36,461 nt of DNA, from the NCBI GenBank assembly GCA_016873835.1, contig VGVY01000013.1, positions 1-36,461 of the forward strand, read 5' to 3'. Under the pieces are notes generated by a model that had not been told where the DNA came from, made no database searches, and saw nothing but the letters and a program-made list of their open reading frames with translations. A program made the translations under genes and the position numbers. This DNA is from Ignavibacteria bacterium. Its GTDB lineage: Bacteria; Bacteroidota; Ignavibacteria; Ignavibacteriales; Melioribacteraceae. Below, piece by piece: positions 1,067 to 6,423 of the stretch; positions within the stretch are counted from its first letter, which is position 1, and every line of letters starts with the position of its first letter.

Positions 1067-1138
1067 GGGCGCGTAGCTCAGGGGTAGAGCATATGCCTTT
1101 TAAGCATAGGGTCGGTGGTTCGATCCCACCCGCGCTCA
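1067..1138 (+). tRNA. tRNA-Lys (anticodon TTT)
   Basis: A complete cloverleaf folds by eye. The acceptor stem GGGCGCG/CGCGCTC has one G-U pair, and A1138 is the discriminator base. The D arm is GCTC/GAGC. The anticodon stem TATGC/GCATA encloses the loop CTTTTAA, with anticodon TTT at 1099-1101. The T arm GGTGG/CCACC encloses TTCGATC. The 3' CCA is not encoded. It stands alone, with a promoter-like sequence upstream and a hairpin terminator directly downstream. Confidence 0.97.
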
Positions 1139-1140
1139 CT

Positions 1141-1178
1141 AAAAAAAGCCTCTTTACTAATCGTATTGAGGCTTTTTT
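1141..1178 (+). terminator. Intrinsic terminator of tRNA-Lys, probably bidirectional
   Basis: GCCTC (1148-1152) pairs with GAGGC (1168-1172), followed by six T on the plus strand and preceded by seven A, which gives a T tract on the minus strand. It serves the tRNA. On the other strand the 3' arm and most of the loop lie inside the last codons of the convergent hydrolase gene, so it may also stop that transcript. Confidence 0.75.
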
Positions 1179-2131
1179 ATTCTCATATATAAAATTTTAA
1201 ACGTTTCATTAATTATTCCTAATATCCATTTCATCATTTTTGTTCTATCTTCCATCATAAATCCATAAACAACATTGCTAAACTCAGGTGTTCTCAAATA
1301 TCCGTAAGATTTATGAGGATTTTTAATGTTGTTATATGAGTAATCATTTTCTACAATAAAATCTGTTGCAGCTATTCCTTTATCGTTTGGATCATAATCA
1401 TCAGCCAAATTATAATTAACAGCAACTTTATCTTGAAGGTCAGAAAAATTAAACCAGTGTTTAGTAACAGCTGAAGGTGTTGTTAATTTTACTGTGTGAG
1501 GAAAATCTGCTTTTATTTCTTTGGCAATTTTACTTTGCACAATTGGAATTCCAAGTGGTGAGCCGATGGTTGCAAAGGTATCAACTTTAACTTGGGCTAA
1601 ATTAAGGACAAGCACATCATAAGCAATTATTGAACCCATTGAGTGACCAATAAAAAATATTTTTTTCTTTCGATTTTTCGTTAAGATTTTCGCTGCTCTA
1701 TTTCGAATAAGGTCCTTTATATTCTCTTTTTTATAATAATTCTCTAAATCTTCAAAGTACTTATGAATAACATATTCTGAGATAATCGGAATATTCAATG
1801 ATAGATCGTTTTTCAAAAATATTTTGTCTGTAATTTTTTCGAGTTGGTCAAGAATTTTCTTTCTATTAAGATTTGGTTTATTTTTTGAATTAAATTGATA
1901 AGGCTTGTATGGTTCATCTAAATAATTTGGATTTGTCTTGTCATTAATATTAAAGTCTAACGGGGCGGGATGTAAAATATCTGCCCAGTAGATTAAATCA
2001 AATTTTGGTTTTAGGAAATAATTATTATGAATTCGTAATCCATCAATAATTGATTTCTTCCACCACTTTTCTGCCAACTCTTTAGGCGGTTTATTTCCTA
2101 ATCCATGAATACCAACAATTATTCTTTTCAT
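1157..2131 (-). CDS. Alpha/beta-hydrolase (lipase/esterase-like)
   Basis: A 324-residue alpha/beta-hydrolase fold protein without a signal peptide, so probably cytoplasmic. It opens with a strand and HG motif typical of lipases (IIVGIHGLG, residues 4-12). The nucleophile elbow is GHSMGS with Ser164, followed by a second strand with ATIGSPLG. A catalytic His candidate lies in the C-terminal half (NPHKSYGY). The substrate cannot be told from sequence. It starts five bases after the glycerophosphodiesterase gene, so the two are probably co-transcribed. A joint role in lipid or glycerophosphodiester turnover is a reasonable guess but unproven. Its last codons overlap the tRNA terminator. Confidence 0.8.
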   Translation of the reverse strand: MKRIIVGIHGLGNKPPKELAEKWWKKSIIDGLRIHNNYFLKPKFDLIYWADILHPAPLDFNINDKTNPNYLDEPYKPYQFNSKNKPNLNRKKILDQLEKITDKIFLKNDLSLNIPIISEYVIHKYFEDLENYYKKENIKDLIRNRAAKILTKNRKKKIFFIGHSMGSIIAYDVLVLNLAQVKVDTFATIGSPLGIPIVQSKIAKEIKADFPHTVKLTTPSAVTKHWFNFSDLQDKVAVNYNLADDYDPNDKGIAATDFIVENDYSYNNIKNPHKSYGYLRTPEFSNVVYGFMMEDRTKMMKWILGIINETFKILYMRIKKPQYD

Positions 2132-2136
2132 TAATA

Positions 2137-2898
2137 CTAAATTGTATTAAATAAATTATTTGTTAACCAAGATGGTTTGTCGCTGTTTATTCCATCAACT
2201 CCAAGTTCAATTAATCTTTTTGCACGTTCTAAATCATTGACAGTCCAAACGTAAATTTTCAATCCAAGATTTTTGATGCTCTCTACAATTGATTTACTAA
2301 TCAAATTGCTATCCCAAACGTCAATGCCGTTTAAGCTGTTATCAAATGCTCGCTTTATCAATAAATTAATATTGGGTTTGACTATTTTTCGAATAATATT
2401 GTAATCTAAATTATGACACCACAAGACAATGTTTTCTGGGAAAGTTTTTTTAATTGTAACCATTGTTTTAAATTTGAACCCAACAAGTTCAATTTGATCA
2501 ATGTCCAATCCGGAATTATCTATATCCTTTTTAAGGGAAGGAATAATGTCTAAACCGCATTTAATATCAAGTATTATTTTTTTATTACTTGGAACAGAGG
2601 ATAGCACTTCTTCTAAAGTTGGAATTTTTTCACTAATCCATTTTTTTCCTTTGAATTTTCCAAATTCTAAATTTTTTAATTCATGTAATGATTGAGCGGA
2701 AACCTTTTTGCTAACTCCTCCAGTTCTTTTTGTATTTGTATCATGAATCACAACGATTTGTTTGTCTTTGGATAATTGAATATCAACTTCAACAGCTTCA
2801 GCATTTCTTTTCCATGCTAAATTTATTGCAGCCAAAGTATTTTCCGGTGCTTCAAAGGATTCCCCTCTGTGGGCTATTATTAAACTTTTATTGGTCAT
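2137..2898 (-). CDS. Glycerophosphodiester phosphodiesterase (GDPD/UgpQ family)
   Basis: Hydrolyses glycerophosphodiesters to glycerol-3-phosphate and an alcohol; family members use a TIM barrel and a divalent metal. The diagnostic N-terminal block is present: IAHRGESFEAPENT, then VEVDIQLSKD and VVIHD, which supply the general acid/base His residues and metal-binding Glu/Asp. The C-terminal WTVNDLERAKRLIELGVDGINSD is also typical. I place the start at the ATG at 2898, giving 253 residues. The longer frame, from 2973, would add 25 mostly hydrophobic residues, and its first codon lies inside the terminal TGTCATTTC of a palindromic repeat. If that start were used, the product would carry a membrane anchor. 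The gene is followed after five bases by the alpha/beta-hydrolase. Confidence 0.9.
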   Translation of the reverse strand: MTNKSLIIAHRGESFEAPENTLAAINLAWKRNAEAVEVDIQLSKDKQIVVIHDTNTKRTGGVSKKVSAQSLHELKNLEFGKFKGKKWISEKIPTLEEVLSSVPSNKKIILDIKCGLDIIPSLKKDIDNSGLDIDQIELVGFKFKTMVTIKKTFPENIVLWCHNLDYNIIRKIVKPNINLLIKRAFDNSLNGIDVWDSNLISKSIVESIKNLGLKIYVWTVNDLERAKRLIELGVDGINSDKPSWLTNNLFNTI

Positions 2899-2968
2899 CT
2901 GAAAGCATTTTATTCTCAACATTAAAATAGTGACTATTATGAATAGAGACATCAGAAAAATATCGTTT

Positions 2969-3072
2969 GTCATTTCTACTACCGGTCTTACCGATCAAGG
3001 CGAGTCTAGAAGGGAAAAATCTTTGATTCCGATAAGATTTCTCATCAGTCAGTTGACGGATTCGAAATGACA
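2969..3072. repeat. Long imperfect palindromic repeat (REP-like)
   Basis: The ends TGTCATTTC (2969-2977) and GAAATGACA (3064-3072) are perfect inverted copies. Near the centre AAATCTT and AAGATTT again pair around a short loop. The pattern TGTCATTTCGA...GAGAAATCTT resembles a dispersed noncoding palindrome that I recall as common in Bacteroidetes-group genomes; this is from memory, not a search. It sits at the start of the longest GDPD frame and would fold into a long hairpin in RNA or single-stranded DNA. No transposase is nearby. Confidence 0.7.
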
Positions 3073-3117
3073 TTTTAGATTTTTTTAAAAGGCTCAATAA
3101 TTATTTATGAAATAAAA

Positions 3118-3149
3118 TTTGACAAACCTTAAAAGACCTTTTATATTTG
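3118..3149 (+). promoter_or_regulatory. Strong predicted promoter of the trp leader / trpB2
   Basis: TTGACA (3119-3124), 17 bases, TATATT (3142-3147) is a near-consensus sigma-70 promoter. The same bases also fit the Bacteroidetes form TTTG-N20-TATATTTG. Transcription would start at about 3154-3157, immediately before the GTG of the leader peptide at 3158. Confidence 0.75.
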
Positions 3150-3157
3150 TCCCCGAA

Positions 3158-3223
3158 GTGAAAACTAAAATTAATATAGCGCAATTAGGTTGGTGGTGGA
3201 GAAGTTCTTCTCTGCTGTCCTGA
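3158..3223 (+). CDS. Tryptophan leader peptide (21 residues, three consecutive Trp codons)
   Basis: A short reading frame from GTG at 3158 to TGA at 3221-3223, with TGG TGG TGG at 3191-3199 in the context LGWWWRSS. E. coli TrpL has LKGWWRTS, so the resemblance is close. It lies 128 bases before trpB2 and directly after a strong promoter. No other reasonable in-frame start exists. The predicted transcription start is only a few bases upstream, so translation would be leaderless or nearly so, with no Shine-Dalgarno site. Expected role: a ribosome short of charged tRNA-Trp stalls on the Trp codons and changes folding of the downstream RNA. The peptide itself need have no function. Confidence 0.8.
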   Translation: MKTKINIAQLGWWWRSSSLLS

Positions 3224-3322
3224 TGCTATAATTTTTTTAGAAAAGCCGTGGATGGTGGAATACCCGTTCACGGCTTGTTTATTTTAAAGTCGTGAACCCT
3301 CATTAACGGCTATTTCGTTTTA
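3175..3322 (+). promoter_or_regulatory. Tryptophan attenuator region: three hairpins with T tracts and an alternative pairing
   Basis: Hairpin A: TATAGC (3175-3180) with GCTATA (3225-3230), extended inward by 3184-3189 with 3219-3224, followed by seven T at 3232-3238; the Trp codons lie inside it. Hairpin B: AAGCCGTG (3243-3250) with CACGGCTT (3269-3276), followed by a T-rich stretch. Hairpin C: AGTCGT (3289-3294) with ACGGCT (3306-3311, one G-U), followed by TATTTCGTTTT. GTTCACG (3266-3272) can instead pair with CGTGAAC (3291-3297), which would break both B and C. A ribosome stalled at 3191-3199 would cover the 5' side of A. These pairings are read directly; which state terminates is inference. 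Confidence 0.65.
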
Positions 3323-3350
3323 ATAATCCATCAATTAAATGGAGGTTCAT

Positions 3351-4652
3351 ATGTCAAGCAGTAAAATTATTTTTCTTGATCAGTCCCAAATACCAACTCA
3401 TTATTATAATATTCTTCCTGATCTTCCAAAACCCTTAGATCCGCCTTTGCACCCCGGAACAAAACAACCGATTGGTACTCAAGACTTGTCCGCTATTTTC
3501 CCGAAAGAGTTAATTAAACAAGAAGTAAGTTCTGAACAATACATTGAAATCCCTGATGAAGTATTGGAGCTCTATAAATTGAGCAGACCAACACCATTAA
3601 TTCGTGCGGAGAATCTAGAGAAAAAATTGGATACACCCGCTAAAATATATTTTAAGTATGAGGGAGCTAATCCAACTGGAAGTCACAAAACAAATACATC
3701 TTATGCTCAAGCATACTATAACAAGAGAGCCGGGATAAAAAAATTAGTAACAGAAACTGGTGCTGGTCAGTGGGGAAGTGCTCTTGCAATGGCATGTAAA
3801 CATTTTGATTTGGAATGTGAAGTATTCATGGTTAAGGTTAGTTACAATCAAAAACCATATCGAAAAACTTTTATGAAGTTTTTCGGTGCTGAAGTATATG
3901 CAAGTCCCTCAACTTTAACTAGTGCTGGTAAAAAGGTTTTGGATAAAGATCCTAATTCACCCGGTTCGCTAGGTATTGCTATAAGTGAAGCAATTGAAAT
4001 TGCTGCTCAACGAGAGGACACAAACTACAGTTTGGGCAGTGTGTTAAATCATGTTCTGCTGCATCAAACAATTATTGGAGAAGAAGCGAAGAAACAATTG
4101 GAAATTGCTGATGATTATCCCGATGTCGTAATTGGTTGTGTCGGAGGCGGCAGTAACTTTGCCGGAATTGCATTTCCATTTTTGAAAGAAAAACTTACTG
4201 GTGATAAAAATAATCTGGAAGTAATTGGTGTAGAACCACTATCTTGCCCTTCGCTCACAAAAGGGAAATATGATTATGATTTTGGCGATGAAGCTGGAAT
4301 GACTCCATTAATTAAGATGTACACACTCGGTCATGAGTTTGTTCCACCGAGTATCCATGCTGGAGGACTAAGATATCATGGTGCGGCGCCGATTGTTTCT
4401 GCTTTAGTAAATTCAGGTCATGTTATTGCAAAAGCATACGAACAAACTGAAGTTTTTCAGGCAGCACATTTATTTGCACAATGCGAAGGAATTGTTCCAG
4501 CTCCAGAAAGTGCGCATGCAATTAAGGAAGCTATAGTGCAAGCAATAAAATGCAAGGAAACTGGTGAATCAAAAAAAATCTTATTCAATTTATCAGGGCA
4601 TGGATTTTTGGATTTAGGTTCTTACGAAATATTTCTTGAAAATGGTTTTTAA
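3351..4652 (+). CDS. trpB2: Tryptophan synthase beta-like enzyme, TrpB2 type
   Basis: PLP enzyme condensing serine with indole to tryptophan. It belongs to the long TrpB2 class rather than the TrpA-partnered TrpB1. Class features: the extended N-terminus rich in Pro ([15 protein letters not shown]), [15 protein letters not shown], the PLP lysine in [10 protein letters not shown] (Lys113), [10 protein letters not shown], and the phosphate-binding VGGGSN loop. The start is the ATG at 3351, because GGAGG at 3341-3345 sits five bases before it. An upstream in-frame ATG at 3339 precedes that ribosome-binding site. The product has 433 residues. No trpA or other trp gene is adjacent. The Trp-codon leader upstream argues that it is a tryptophan-controlled biosynthetic or indole-salvage enzyme. 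PLP-TrpB2 identity is firm; in vivo substrate supply is inferred. Confidence 0.93.
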
Positions 4653-4819
4653 TATAATGGTGAAAAAATCGAATTATAGAGAATTCAACATCAATCACTA
4701 ATGATTTTATAGTTGATGATTACAGTTTTGAAGAAATATCTAATGAGTATTTGTACTTTTGACAAAGGATAATTTTAGATATCTTCATTTGCTTAATTTT
4801 GGCAATTGACCAAATCAAA

Positions 4820-5770
4820 ATGAAAAAAATTACTTTTGTCATAAACGGAACTCTTAGAAATATTTCTTCAATTAAAAAAAGAATTGTTGAAAATTTTGAA
4901 AGAGATTTTGAAATATCATTAAAAGTTTCTTCTTATAGAACAGATTCAATGAACCTTGCTGAAAACGGAATTAAAGAAGGATCAGATTATATTATTAGTG
5001 TCGGCGGCGATGGAACCATGAATGAAGTTGTAAATGGTGTAATGAGAATTCCAAAATATCAAAGAGAAAAATTGATAGTAGGACTTCTTCCAACCGGATC
5101 TGGTAATGATTTTGCACGAACTATGAAATTATCTTCACATGCGGTTAAATTAAAAAATTACATTCTTAATAACTTATTTACACACATTGACATTGGAAAA
5201 ATTGAATGTAGAAAAATAAACGGCGAGCCAACTACAAGATATTTTAATAATATTGCAGATGCCGGATTGGGAGGGGAAGTAACAAATAAATTAAGTAACA
5301 GTAAAAAATTATTAGGCCCAACATTCACATATTTCAAATCATCGGTTACTTCTTTTATTACTTACAAAAAGAAAAGAATTAGATTTAGTTCCCCACAGTT
5401 TTCATGGGAAGGAGCAATTTTAATTCTATGTTTAGCAAATGCAAATTATTTTGGAAGCGGATTGGGAATTGCACCTCATGCAAAATATGATGATGGTAAA
5501 ATGGCAGTTGTAATTGCGGGAGAAGTGAGCTTATTTGATTATCTCAAGAATGTTCCGAAAATCCGCAGAACACAATTTTTAGATCATCCAGGAATAATTT
5601 ATAATGAAGTAGAATCGTGTGAAATTGAGCCACTTGACGATAATTGTCTAATTGAAACAGATGGAGAAGTCGCTGGTAAATTACCGCTAAAATTAAGCGT
5701 ACTAAACAAAGAATTAAAACTATTATCACCAATTAATGCTTGTAACAAAAATAATTTCCAATCAAGATGA
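4820..5770 (+). CDS. Diacylglycerol/lipid kinase, YegS/DgkB (LCB5) family
   Basis: Cytoplasmic or peripheral lipid kinase transferring the ATP gamma-phosphate to diacylglycerol or a related lipid. The catalytic-domain signature is clear: SVGGDGTMNEVVNGV near the N-terminus, then LLPTGSGNDFARTM, and in the C-terminal lobe DDGKMAVVI and ETDGEV. About 316 residues from ATG 4820, typical for the family. A TTG at 4799 would add seven residues but has no better ribosome-binding site. The TGA overlaps the ATG of the next gene (ATGA at 5767-5770), so the two are translationally coupled. Lipid specificity cannot be read from sequence. Confidence 0.9.
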   Translation: MKKITFVINGTLRNISSIKKRIVENFERDFEISLKVSSYRTDSMNLAENGIKEGSDYIISVGGDGTMNEVVNGVMRIPKYQREKLIVGLLPTGSGNDFARTMKLSSHAVKLKNYILNNLFTHIDIGKIECRKINGEPTTRYFNNIADAGLGGEVTNKLSNSKKLLGPTFTYFKSSVTSFITYKKKRIRFSSPQFSWEGAILILCLANANYFGSGLGIAPHAKYDDGKMAVVIAGEVSLFDYLKNVPKIRRTQFLDHPGIIYNEVESCEIEPLDDNCLIETDGEVAGKLPLKLSVLNKELKLLSPINACNKNNFQSR

Positions 5771-6423
5771 ACCCATATATTCAAATATTGATTGGCAGTT
5801 TTTTGTTAAGTGTTGTACATGCATTAATTCCAAGTCACTGGCTGCCTCTTGTAGCAATTGGAAAGTCAGAAAAATGGACAAACAAAGAGTTGTCATTTGT
5901 TACATTTATAACTGCAGCCTCCCACACTATAAGCACAGTAGTTATTGGAATTATTGTGGGCTTGATTGGTTATAAACTTTCTGAATCATACCATTATATT
6001 ACACATTATGTTGCTCCGGTAATTTTAATTGCACTCGGGCTATTTTATTTTATTCTAGAATATCGGCACAGTTTAATTAAACATAAACATCATCACCATC
6101 ACAACATTGATATCGATGGGATAATCAAAAAGAAAAAAACAAAGCATTCAATAGTAATGAGTTTAAACTTAGCAATGTTTTTCTCGCCATGTTTAGAAAT
6201 CGAAGTATATTATTTTTCTGCAAGTCGATTAGGCTGGGCGGGAATTGGTTTAGTTTCAATTGTTTATTTTTTTGTAACGGTGACTGCAATTGTGCTTTTA
6301 GTTTTTCTTGCATCAAAAGGTGTTGAAAAATTGAAATGGCATTTTCTAGAACATCATGATAAACTTATAAGCGGAATAATTTTAGTATTAGTAGGCATTT
6401 TAGCCTTCTTTGTAGATTTTTAA
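5767..6423 (+). CDS. His-rich polytopic membrane protein, RcnA/NicO-like metal exporter candidate
   Basis: 218 residues with about six hydrophobic segments. Helix 1 carries HALIPSHW, helix 2 begins at ASHTIS, and the loop after the third segment holds a run of His/Lys (HKHHHHH, about residue 103), with SPCLEIE in a later helix. The HALxPxH + HT pair and the His-rich cytoplasmic loop match nickel/cobalt transporters of the NicO/RcnA type and related TauE/UreH-like proteins; this is motif recognition by eye. It overlaps the lipid kinase by four bases. Substrate could be Ni, Co or another transition metal. Alternative: an uncharacterised member of the wider DsbD/TauE-like membrane group. Confidence 0.6.
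   Translation: MNPYIQILIGSFLLSVVHALIPSHWLPLVAIGKSEKWTNKELSFVTFITAASHTISTVVIGIIVGLIGYKLSESYHYITHYVAPVILIALGLFYFILEYRHSLIKHKHHHHHNIDIDGIIKKKKTKHSIVMSLNLAMFFSPCLEIEVYYFSASRLGWAGIGLVSIVYFFVTVTAIVLLVFLASKGVEKLKWHFLEHHDKLISGIILVLVGILAFFVDF

Follow-up and report, generated by a model that had tools for sequence, protein, structure and literature searches.

A conserved, probable tryptophan attenuator precedes a stand-alone trpB2 gene in Ignavibacteria

How is a lone trpB2 gene controlled, and what does its control say about its role, in a bacterium whose genome lacks the trp operon? The question is raised by the window analyzed here, a 36,461-nucleotide stretch of DNA from an Ignavibacteria bacterium that carries a gene for a TrpB-like PLP enzyme behind a structured leader. 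The trpB2 product scores 725.7 bits against NF009057 (cut-off 366) and 671.8 bits against TIGR01415 (cut-off 518.85), as compared with 176.7 bits against the canonical trpB model, which lies below both TrpB2 model scores. Its closest solved chains are 6hul_B, 4qys_B and 6hte_B, the latter two of which are named ‘tryptophan synthase beta chain 2’. Judging by where the Shine-Dalgarno sequence lies, and by the relatives, the likely start of trpB2 is the ATG at 3351 rather than position 3339. Two genes follow downstream (4799-6423), one for a diacylglycerol/lipid kinase and one for a protein of 218 aa that matches nothing in Pfam or NCBIfam at the thresholds applied.

Positions 3118-3350 comprise a promoter, a 21-codon GTG-initiated frame and a set of alternative RNA helices, followed directly by trpB2 (Table 1). 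The near-consensus promoter that leads into the frame, and the three tandem Trp codons within it, had been recognized in an initial annotation of this DNA and stand as described there; the likeness that it drew to E. coli TrpL is confined to the Trp run. The RNA fold of positions 3152-3340 is much more stable than that of shuffled sequences (z = -5.7; 0 of 200 shuffles as stable). Three hairpins with T-rich tails (A, B and C) had been proposed within this region. Hairpin B is the terminator T1, and it is the only terminator-like site that a terminator scan returned in 2900-3400. Hairpin A is the 1:2 hairpin rather than a terminator, as its T tract (3232-3238) is not conserved in relatives, and hairpin C, which corresponds to T2, is present but is weak alone (-5.0 kcal/mol) and has an interrupted U tract. 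Terminators in the leader are thus limited to T1 and possibly T2. The T1 tail of the window is itself interrupted (GTTTATTTTA), and the U tracts of both hairpins are less perfect than those of the relatives. A pairing that excludes hairpins B and C, also part of the original proposal, was borne out and is longer than had been claimed (3266-3276 with 3287-3297, as compared to 3266-3272 with 3291-3297); the central 2:3 antiterminator (3211-3220 with 3250-3259) had been missed.

Table 1. Features of the trpB2 leader region, in window coordinates.
Feature	Position	Strand	Description
Promoter	3119-3149	+	TTGACA-17-TATATT at 3119-3147; 11 of 12 consensus positions
Bacteroidota-type TAnnTTTG element	3142-3149	+	TATATTTG; overlaps the TTGACA-17-TATATT promoter
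Leader peptide frame	3158-3223	+	VKTKINIAQLGWWWRSSSLLS; GTG start at 3158, stop TGA 3221-3223, 21 codons
Trp sensor	3191-3199	+	TGG TGG TGG, three tandem Trp codons; from sequence and relatives
Segment 1	3195-3204	+	Pairs with 3207-3216 to form the 1:2 hairpin; covariation
Segment 2	3211-3220	+	Pairs with segment 3 to form the 2:3 antiterminator; covariation and permutation test
Segment 3	3250-3259	+	Partner of segment 2; also part of the T1 5' arm
Terminator T1 (3:4)	3243-3286	+	3243-3255 with 3264-3276, 13 pairs; U-rich tail 3277-3286 (GTTTATTTTA)
Segment 4	3266-3276	+	Part of T1; alternative partner is segment 5
Segment 5	3287-3297	+	Pairs with segment 4, exact save one G-U; holds the T2 5' arm
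Second hairpin T2	3288-3321	+	3288-3293 with 3306-3311; interrupted U tract
Shine-Dalgarno sequence of trpB2	3341-3345	+	GGAGG; from sequence, position shared with relatives
trpB2 (TrpB-like PLP enzyme)	3351-4652	+	Likely start ATG 3351

The leader frame begins with GTG and no obvious Shine-Dalgarno sequence precedes it. Its start codon lies 8 nt after TATATTTG, and in most leaders that have a TAnnTTTG element the end of this element is positioned 4-8 nt ahead of the leader start codon. Because of this short spacing, the leader peptide is probably translated from the very 5' end of the RNA or from a few bases inside it, making it near-leaderless. In two members of the same genus (G002 and G003; loci L005 and L006) the leader directly follows a tRNA-Lys(TTT) gene, with the start codon 6-8 nt past the tRNA, and 3' processing of the tRNA would there create a near-leaderless 5' end. 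The same tRNA gene is found in the window (1067-1139) at about 2 kb from the leader, and the interval of about 1143-3150 holds two minus-strand genes and the promoter. A search of the window genome for other TGGTGGTGG sites found none that forms a Trp-run leader.

Conservation of the leader was assessed by searching for trpB2 proteins in relatives and collecting their upstream regions. Of the 37 best-matching loci of the order that could be assessed, 36 have the same leader in front of trpB2; the proteins encoded at these loci share 64-100% identity with that of the window (locus L146, cut by a contig end, falls outside the assessable set). The exception, genome G128 (L134), has a degenerate leader that keeps the promoter and a T1-like terminator and has lost the Trp leader frame; the lower-identity trpB2 genes examined (about 60-65%) are without a leader of this class. 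Of the 36 aligned leaders, 35 have runs of three to four Trp codons (WWW, WWWW, WxWWW, WWQW), and the remaining one (L143) has two Trp codons only (WRQW). Across 24 aligned leaders the peptides are homologous and share the Trp run; they follow the loose pattern NIxNxNWWWWRxxSLxS, and the T tract of T1 is conserved as well. A covariance model (R1) built from the 36 leaders was searched in 164 genomes of the order and has matches at E <= 1e-7 in 38 of them, all just upstream of trpB2 except that in G101, where the match lies at a contig end, with the Trp-run leader visible but no trpB2 in view. Spread beyond the order was considered and rejected, as the three weak R1 hits obtained when 296 genomes of the phylum were scanned proved to be plain terminators.

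Other Trp-containing frames are found upstream of trpB2. A second leader class in the order, without a visible terminator, is present at L013, L152, L153, L155, L157, L158 and L160; its Trp leader frames end in HTWPWRR, SWPWRR, NWRGWRRW or NWRGWHR immediately before the stop codon, and its g21 members are without TrpA. Four more trpB2 genes (L082, L116, L051 and L078) have Trp-rich frames ahead of them: NWRWWWC in a Caldithrix MAG, MWSWC in a Bacteroidales MAG, NWCWWN with two terminators in a further bacterium, and EWNWRF in a Neomarinimicrobiota MAG. These four frames suggest a wider use of Trp leaders on trpB2.

The three alternative helices are maintained by compensatory changes. In the alignment of 36 genomes, 92.4% of cells in the 2:3 helix are paired and five of its ten pairs have changed on both sides; its covariation score was reached by none of 500 shuffles, and slid controls were at most 52% paired. 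Taken together, 1:2 and 3:4 are 90.4% paired, with two-sided changes in seven pairs and a covariation score above that of all 500 shuffles. Examples in 1:2 are alignment columns 23-32 (GC/AU/UA) and 24-31 (AU/CG/UA), and RNAalifold predicts both 1:2 and 3:4 unprompted. As column shuffles ignore the relatedness of the genomes, a permutation test was added in which segments 2 and 3 swap partners between species. The 2:3 duplexes formed within a species have a mean energy of -15.96 kcal/mol versus -11.9 kcal/mol (sd 0.46) for permuted partners, with 0 of 20,000 permutations as low; when each distinct segment 3 (15 types) is represented by a single genome, the values are -15.05 versus -10.88 kcal/mol, again with 0 of 20,000. 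The 2:3 antiterminator therefore coevolves, and the mutually exclusive 1:2, 2:3 and 3:4 helices are all retained. The check proposed in the initial annotation, comparison of the relatives' upstream regions, thus did not refute its proposal: 36 genomes keep runs of Trp codons and, with compensatory changes, each of the three alternative stems. Since both conservation and covariation extend over these genomes, the attenuator is not a chance arrangement, and the original observation is confirmed.

This pattern bears on the possibility that the leader is a ligand-binding riboswitch or a protein-binding element (a T-box, a TRAP-like leader or the Rfam RF04312 ‘trpB motif’) rather than a ribosome-read attenuator. 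RF04312 is a riboswitch candidate with a terminator, which in Firmicutes and Fusobacteria is occasionally located ahead of trpB (PMC11109978), and its model aligns to positions 3195-3285. Its score of 25.3 bits is, however, far under the 59-bit gathering cut-off and is lost in a narrower scan, and the model scores equally high at many unrelated sites (in 100 of 146 order genomes and 4 of 14 control genomes). Being sub-threshold and unspecific, with 0 of 146 genomes matching over the cut-off, RF04312 was rejected as an identification of the leader. Neither a T-box nor any other Rfam family reaches its gathering threshold there, and the only match at threshold in the whole window is a tRNA. As the conserved core is a translated run of Trp codons, for which a riboswitch would have no need, a ligand- or protein-binding leader is extremely unlikely. 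The leader might also be read by a ribosome and yet act on trpB2 translation, or via Rho, instead of through intrinsic termination. A non-terminator mode may exist nearby, as the second leader class of the order (the HTWPWRR and NWRGW types) carries Trp codons and no visible terminator. In the window class, on the other hand, T1 is a 12-13-bp hairpin with a U tail that is kept across 36 genomes with 96% of cells paired, and the Shine-Dalgarno sequence of trpB2 lies outside the switching helices, making this mode of action very unlikely.

The intrinsic-termination attenuator has the anatomy that defines the classical trp system: a tandem-Trp frame, mutually exclusive helices, and an intrinsic terminator before the gene. 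To follow its switching logic computationally, nascent RNA was folded with the transcript cut where segment 3 has just emerged, before segment 4. When a ribosome is stalled at either of the first two Trp codons, the probability of 2:3 averages 0.96; when it is placed at the stop codon instead, the average is 0.00. The window leader gives the same two values. Without a ribosome the window value is also 0.00, because 1:2 forms; in some lineages 1:2 does not outcompete 2:3 when the ribosome is absent. Equilibrium folding of full leaders was discarded as a switching test in favor of these nascent stages, as it nearly always returns T1: once segment 4 is complete, P(T1) is about 0.96 in most leaders even with a stalled ribosome. 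Given that equilibrium favors T1 as soon as segment 4 has been made, antitermination would have to be kinetic, occurring co-transcriptionally. Kinetic antitermination is also the accepted picture for E. coli.

We consider it very likely that trpB2 is controlled by ribosome-mediated transcription attenuation in response to charged tRNA-Trp. In the proposed mechanism, RNA polymerase would initiate just upstream of the near-leaderless Trp-run frame. With ample Trp-tRNA, the ribosome would reach the stop codon and cover segment 2, leaving 3:4 to pair so that transcription would stop at T1, with T2 as a possible fail-safe. When Trp-tRNA is scarce, the ribosome would stall on the Trp codons over segment 1, 2:3 would pair before segment 4 is made, and T1 would be blocked; the freed segment 4 may then capture segment 5, blocking T2 as well, and trpB2 would be transcribed. 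TrpB2 would most likely condense salvaged indole with serine (or phosphoserine) to form tryptophan.

The final blocking step in this mechanism involves the second hairpin. The 4:5 duplex of the window has an energy of -15.1 kcal/mol, and its T2 forms with a probability of 0.94 when T1 contains segment 4 versus 0.00 with segment 4 free. Not counting the window, a second hairpin with a U tract is found in 25 of the 36 leaders, and it is stronger in these 25 relatives; its 5' arm there is for the most part a repeat of the T1 arm (AGCCGT) and is able to pair with segment 4. In ten leaders, including that of the window, the T2 probability is 0.00 with segment 4 free and 0.64-0.96 with segment 4 held in T1. 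T2 is stronger in other lineages, where its equilibrium suppression by 4:5 is partial or absent. Segment 5 is present and T2 missing in four leaders (L132, L135, L137 and L138), and both are missing in another four (L003, L004, L133 and L136). The 4:5 pairing is conserved and does not measurably coevolve (own -14.3 versus cross -13.4 kcal/mol), and the argument for coupling the two hairpins therefore comes from energetics and conservation. On these grounds a ‘domino’ arrangement, in which a weak T2 can form only if T1 forms, is plausible in the folding models. A broader joint reading is tentative, and we would put it somewhat below an even chance: the leader would be a cascade attenuator in which one ribosome-read antiterminator decision governs two serial terminators, and the switch would be a remnant of Trp-gene regulation in bacteria that lack the trp pathway and use TrpB2 to salvage indole.

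What remains of tryptophan biosynthesis around this switch was determined from the genomes. In the window genome, which is 98.8% complete, canonical TrpB and TrpA have no match, and a concatenated TrpE-G-D-C-F-A query shows trpE, trpD and trpC to be missing. The matches of this query are instead an isochorismate synthase, PabB and a TrpG/PabA-type amidotransferase adjoining pabB, together with a sub-cut-off TrpF-like protein and weak matches to other amidotransferases. The TrpF-like protein is divergent (L204, contig C32 of the same genome, 228-884, plus strand; 127.8 bits, cut-off 215) and occurs in a genus without trpE, D, C and A. TrpA is present in 23 of the 37 attenuator-bearing genomes tested and absent from 14 (the window genome and 13 others); these 14 fall into seven genera, and nine of them are at least 90% complete. 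Four relatives that retain the trp operon (G009, G011, G022 and G027) have a Trp attenuator of its own before trpE, with a terminator sequence unlike that of trpB2. The leaders upstream of trpE contain VWAWWWWQ, FWWF, SWWWH and HWWWWR (L166, 13953-14063, minus strand; L167; L168; L169). These attenuators indicate that control of this kind is general for Trp genes in the lineage, and that trpB2 keeps its own attenuator where the operon is gone. The earlier suggestion that the cell treats trpB2 as a tryptophan-supply gene is strengthened on both counts, by the missing trpE, D, C, A and canonical trpB and by the separate attenuator before trpE.

The loss of the operon also allows the leader to be viewed as a decaying relic, inherited from ancestors with the full pathway and non-functional since the trp operon was lost in the genus. 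The imperfect U tracts of T1 and T2 in the window and the degenerate leader of G128 are consistent with such decay. Nevertheless, the Trp codons, 9-10-bp 2:3 helices and T1 are kept in each of the three genus members that have trpB2, all of them without TrpA above the cut-off, and in TrpA-less genomes of several other genera; the 2:3 probability of the window still switches from 0.96 to 0.00. A relic is accordingly very unlikely. As a functional attenuator, the leader most likely marks trpB2 as a retained tryptophan-supply gene that acts in indole salvage. Since the trp operon is absent, TrpB2 would have to obtain its indole elsewhere. In Thermococcus kodakarensis, TrpB2 is reported to salvage indole (Hiyama 2014, as cited in PMC11085991). 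The window genome encodes an enzyme of the tryptophanase/tyrosine phenol-lyase family (L211, contig C23, 307-1677, minus strand) that scores 694.6 bits against NF009709 without reaching the stricter cut-offs for TnaA and tyrosine phenol-lyase. This enzyme and TrpB2 could possibly sustain internal indole recycling, i.e. a Trp-indole cycle.

The core mechanism is already known; what is new is the target gene, the lineage, the near-leaderless leader peptide and the predicted coupled second terminator. As in the E. coli and proteobacterial trpL leaders (Yanofsky type), a tandem-Trp frame is combined with 1:2, 2:3 and 3:4 hairpins and an intrinsic terminator, and a stalled ribosome favors the antiterminator. 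E. coli trpL has its own ribosome-binding site, whereas the leader here starts 4-8 nt past a -10-like element; the target is a single stand-alone trpB2 rather than trpE-A, and in many members a second terminator is linked to the first through 4:5 pairing. Candidate trp attenuators are known in Corynebacterium and Streptomyces, including one before trpB2A in C. diphtheriae (PMC1262725), which likewise places a Trp leader with a terminator and antiterminator before a second trpB. In that operon, however, trpB2 adjoins trpA and apparently means a second trpB copy, whereas here it encodes a lone TrpB2-family enzyme (TIGR01415/NF009057), often with no trpA in the genome. RF04312 (PMC11109978) is similar in that it sometimes lies upstream of trpB and has a terminator with a competing upstream stem, but it comes from Firmicutes and Fusobacteria and mostly precedes an ABC transporter. 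The Chlamydia trachomatis trpRBA operon (PMC7755916) is a Trp-responsive salvage tryptophan synthase system in an organism without the full pathway, but is described as relying on the repressors TrpR and YtgR and a TrpBA complex, with no ribosome-read terminator before TrpB2. In the open papers searched, Trp attenuation was not directly described for Ignavibacteria or for genes of the TrpB2 family, although a 2010 attenuator survey by Lopatovskaya and colleagues (cited in PMC4833913) may include related phyla.

These results would extend ribosome-read attenuation to a lineage without an earlier description in the open papers searched, with a near-leaderless leader peptide and possibly a two-terminator cascade. 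Because the attenuator is conserved while the rest of the tryptophan pathway has been lost in several relatives, the cell appears to treat trpB2 as its tryptophan supply, probably via indole salvage. The retention of a Trp-codon switch in seven genera with TrpA-less members argues that selection counts trpB2 as a source of tryptophan.
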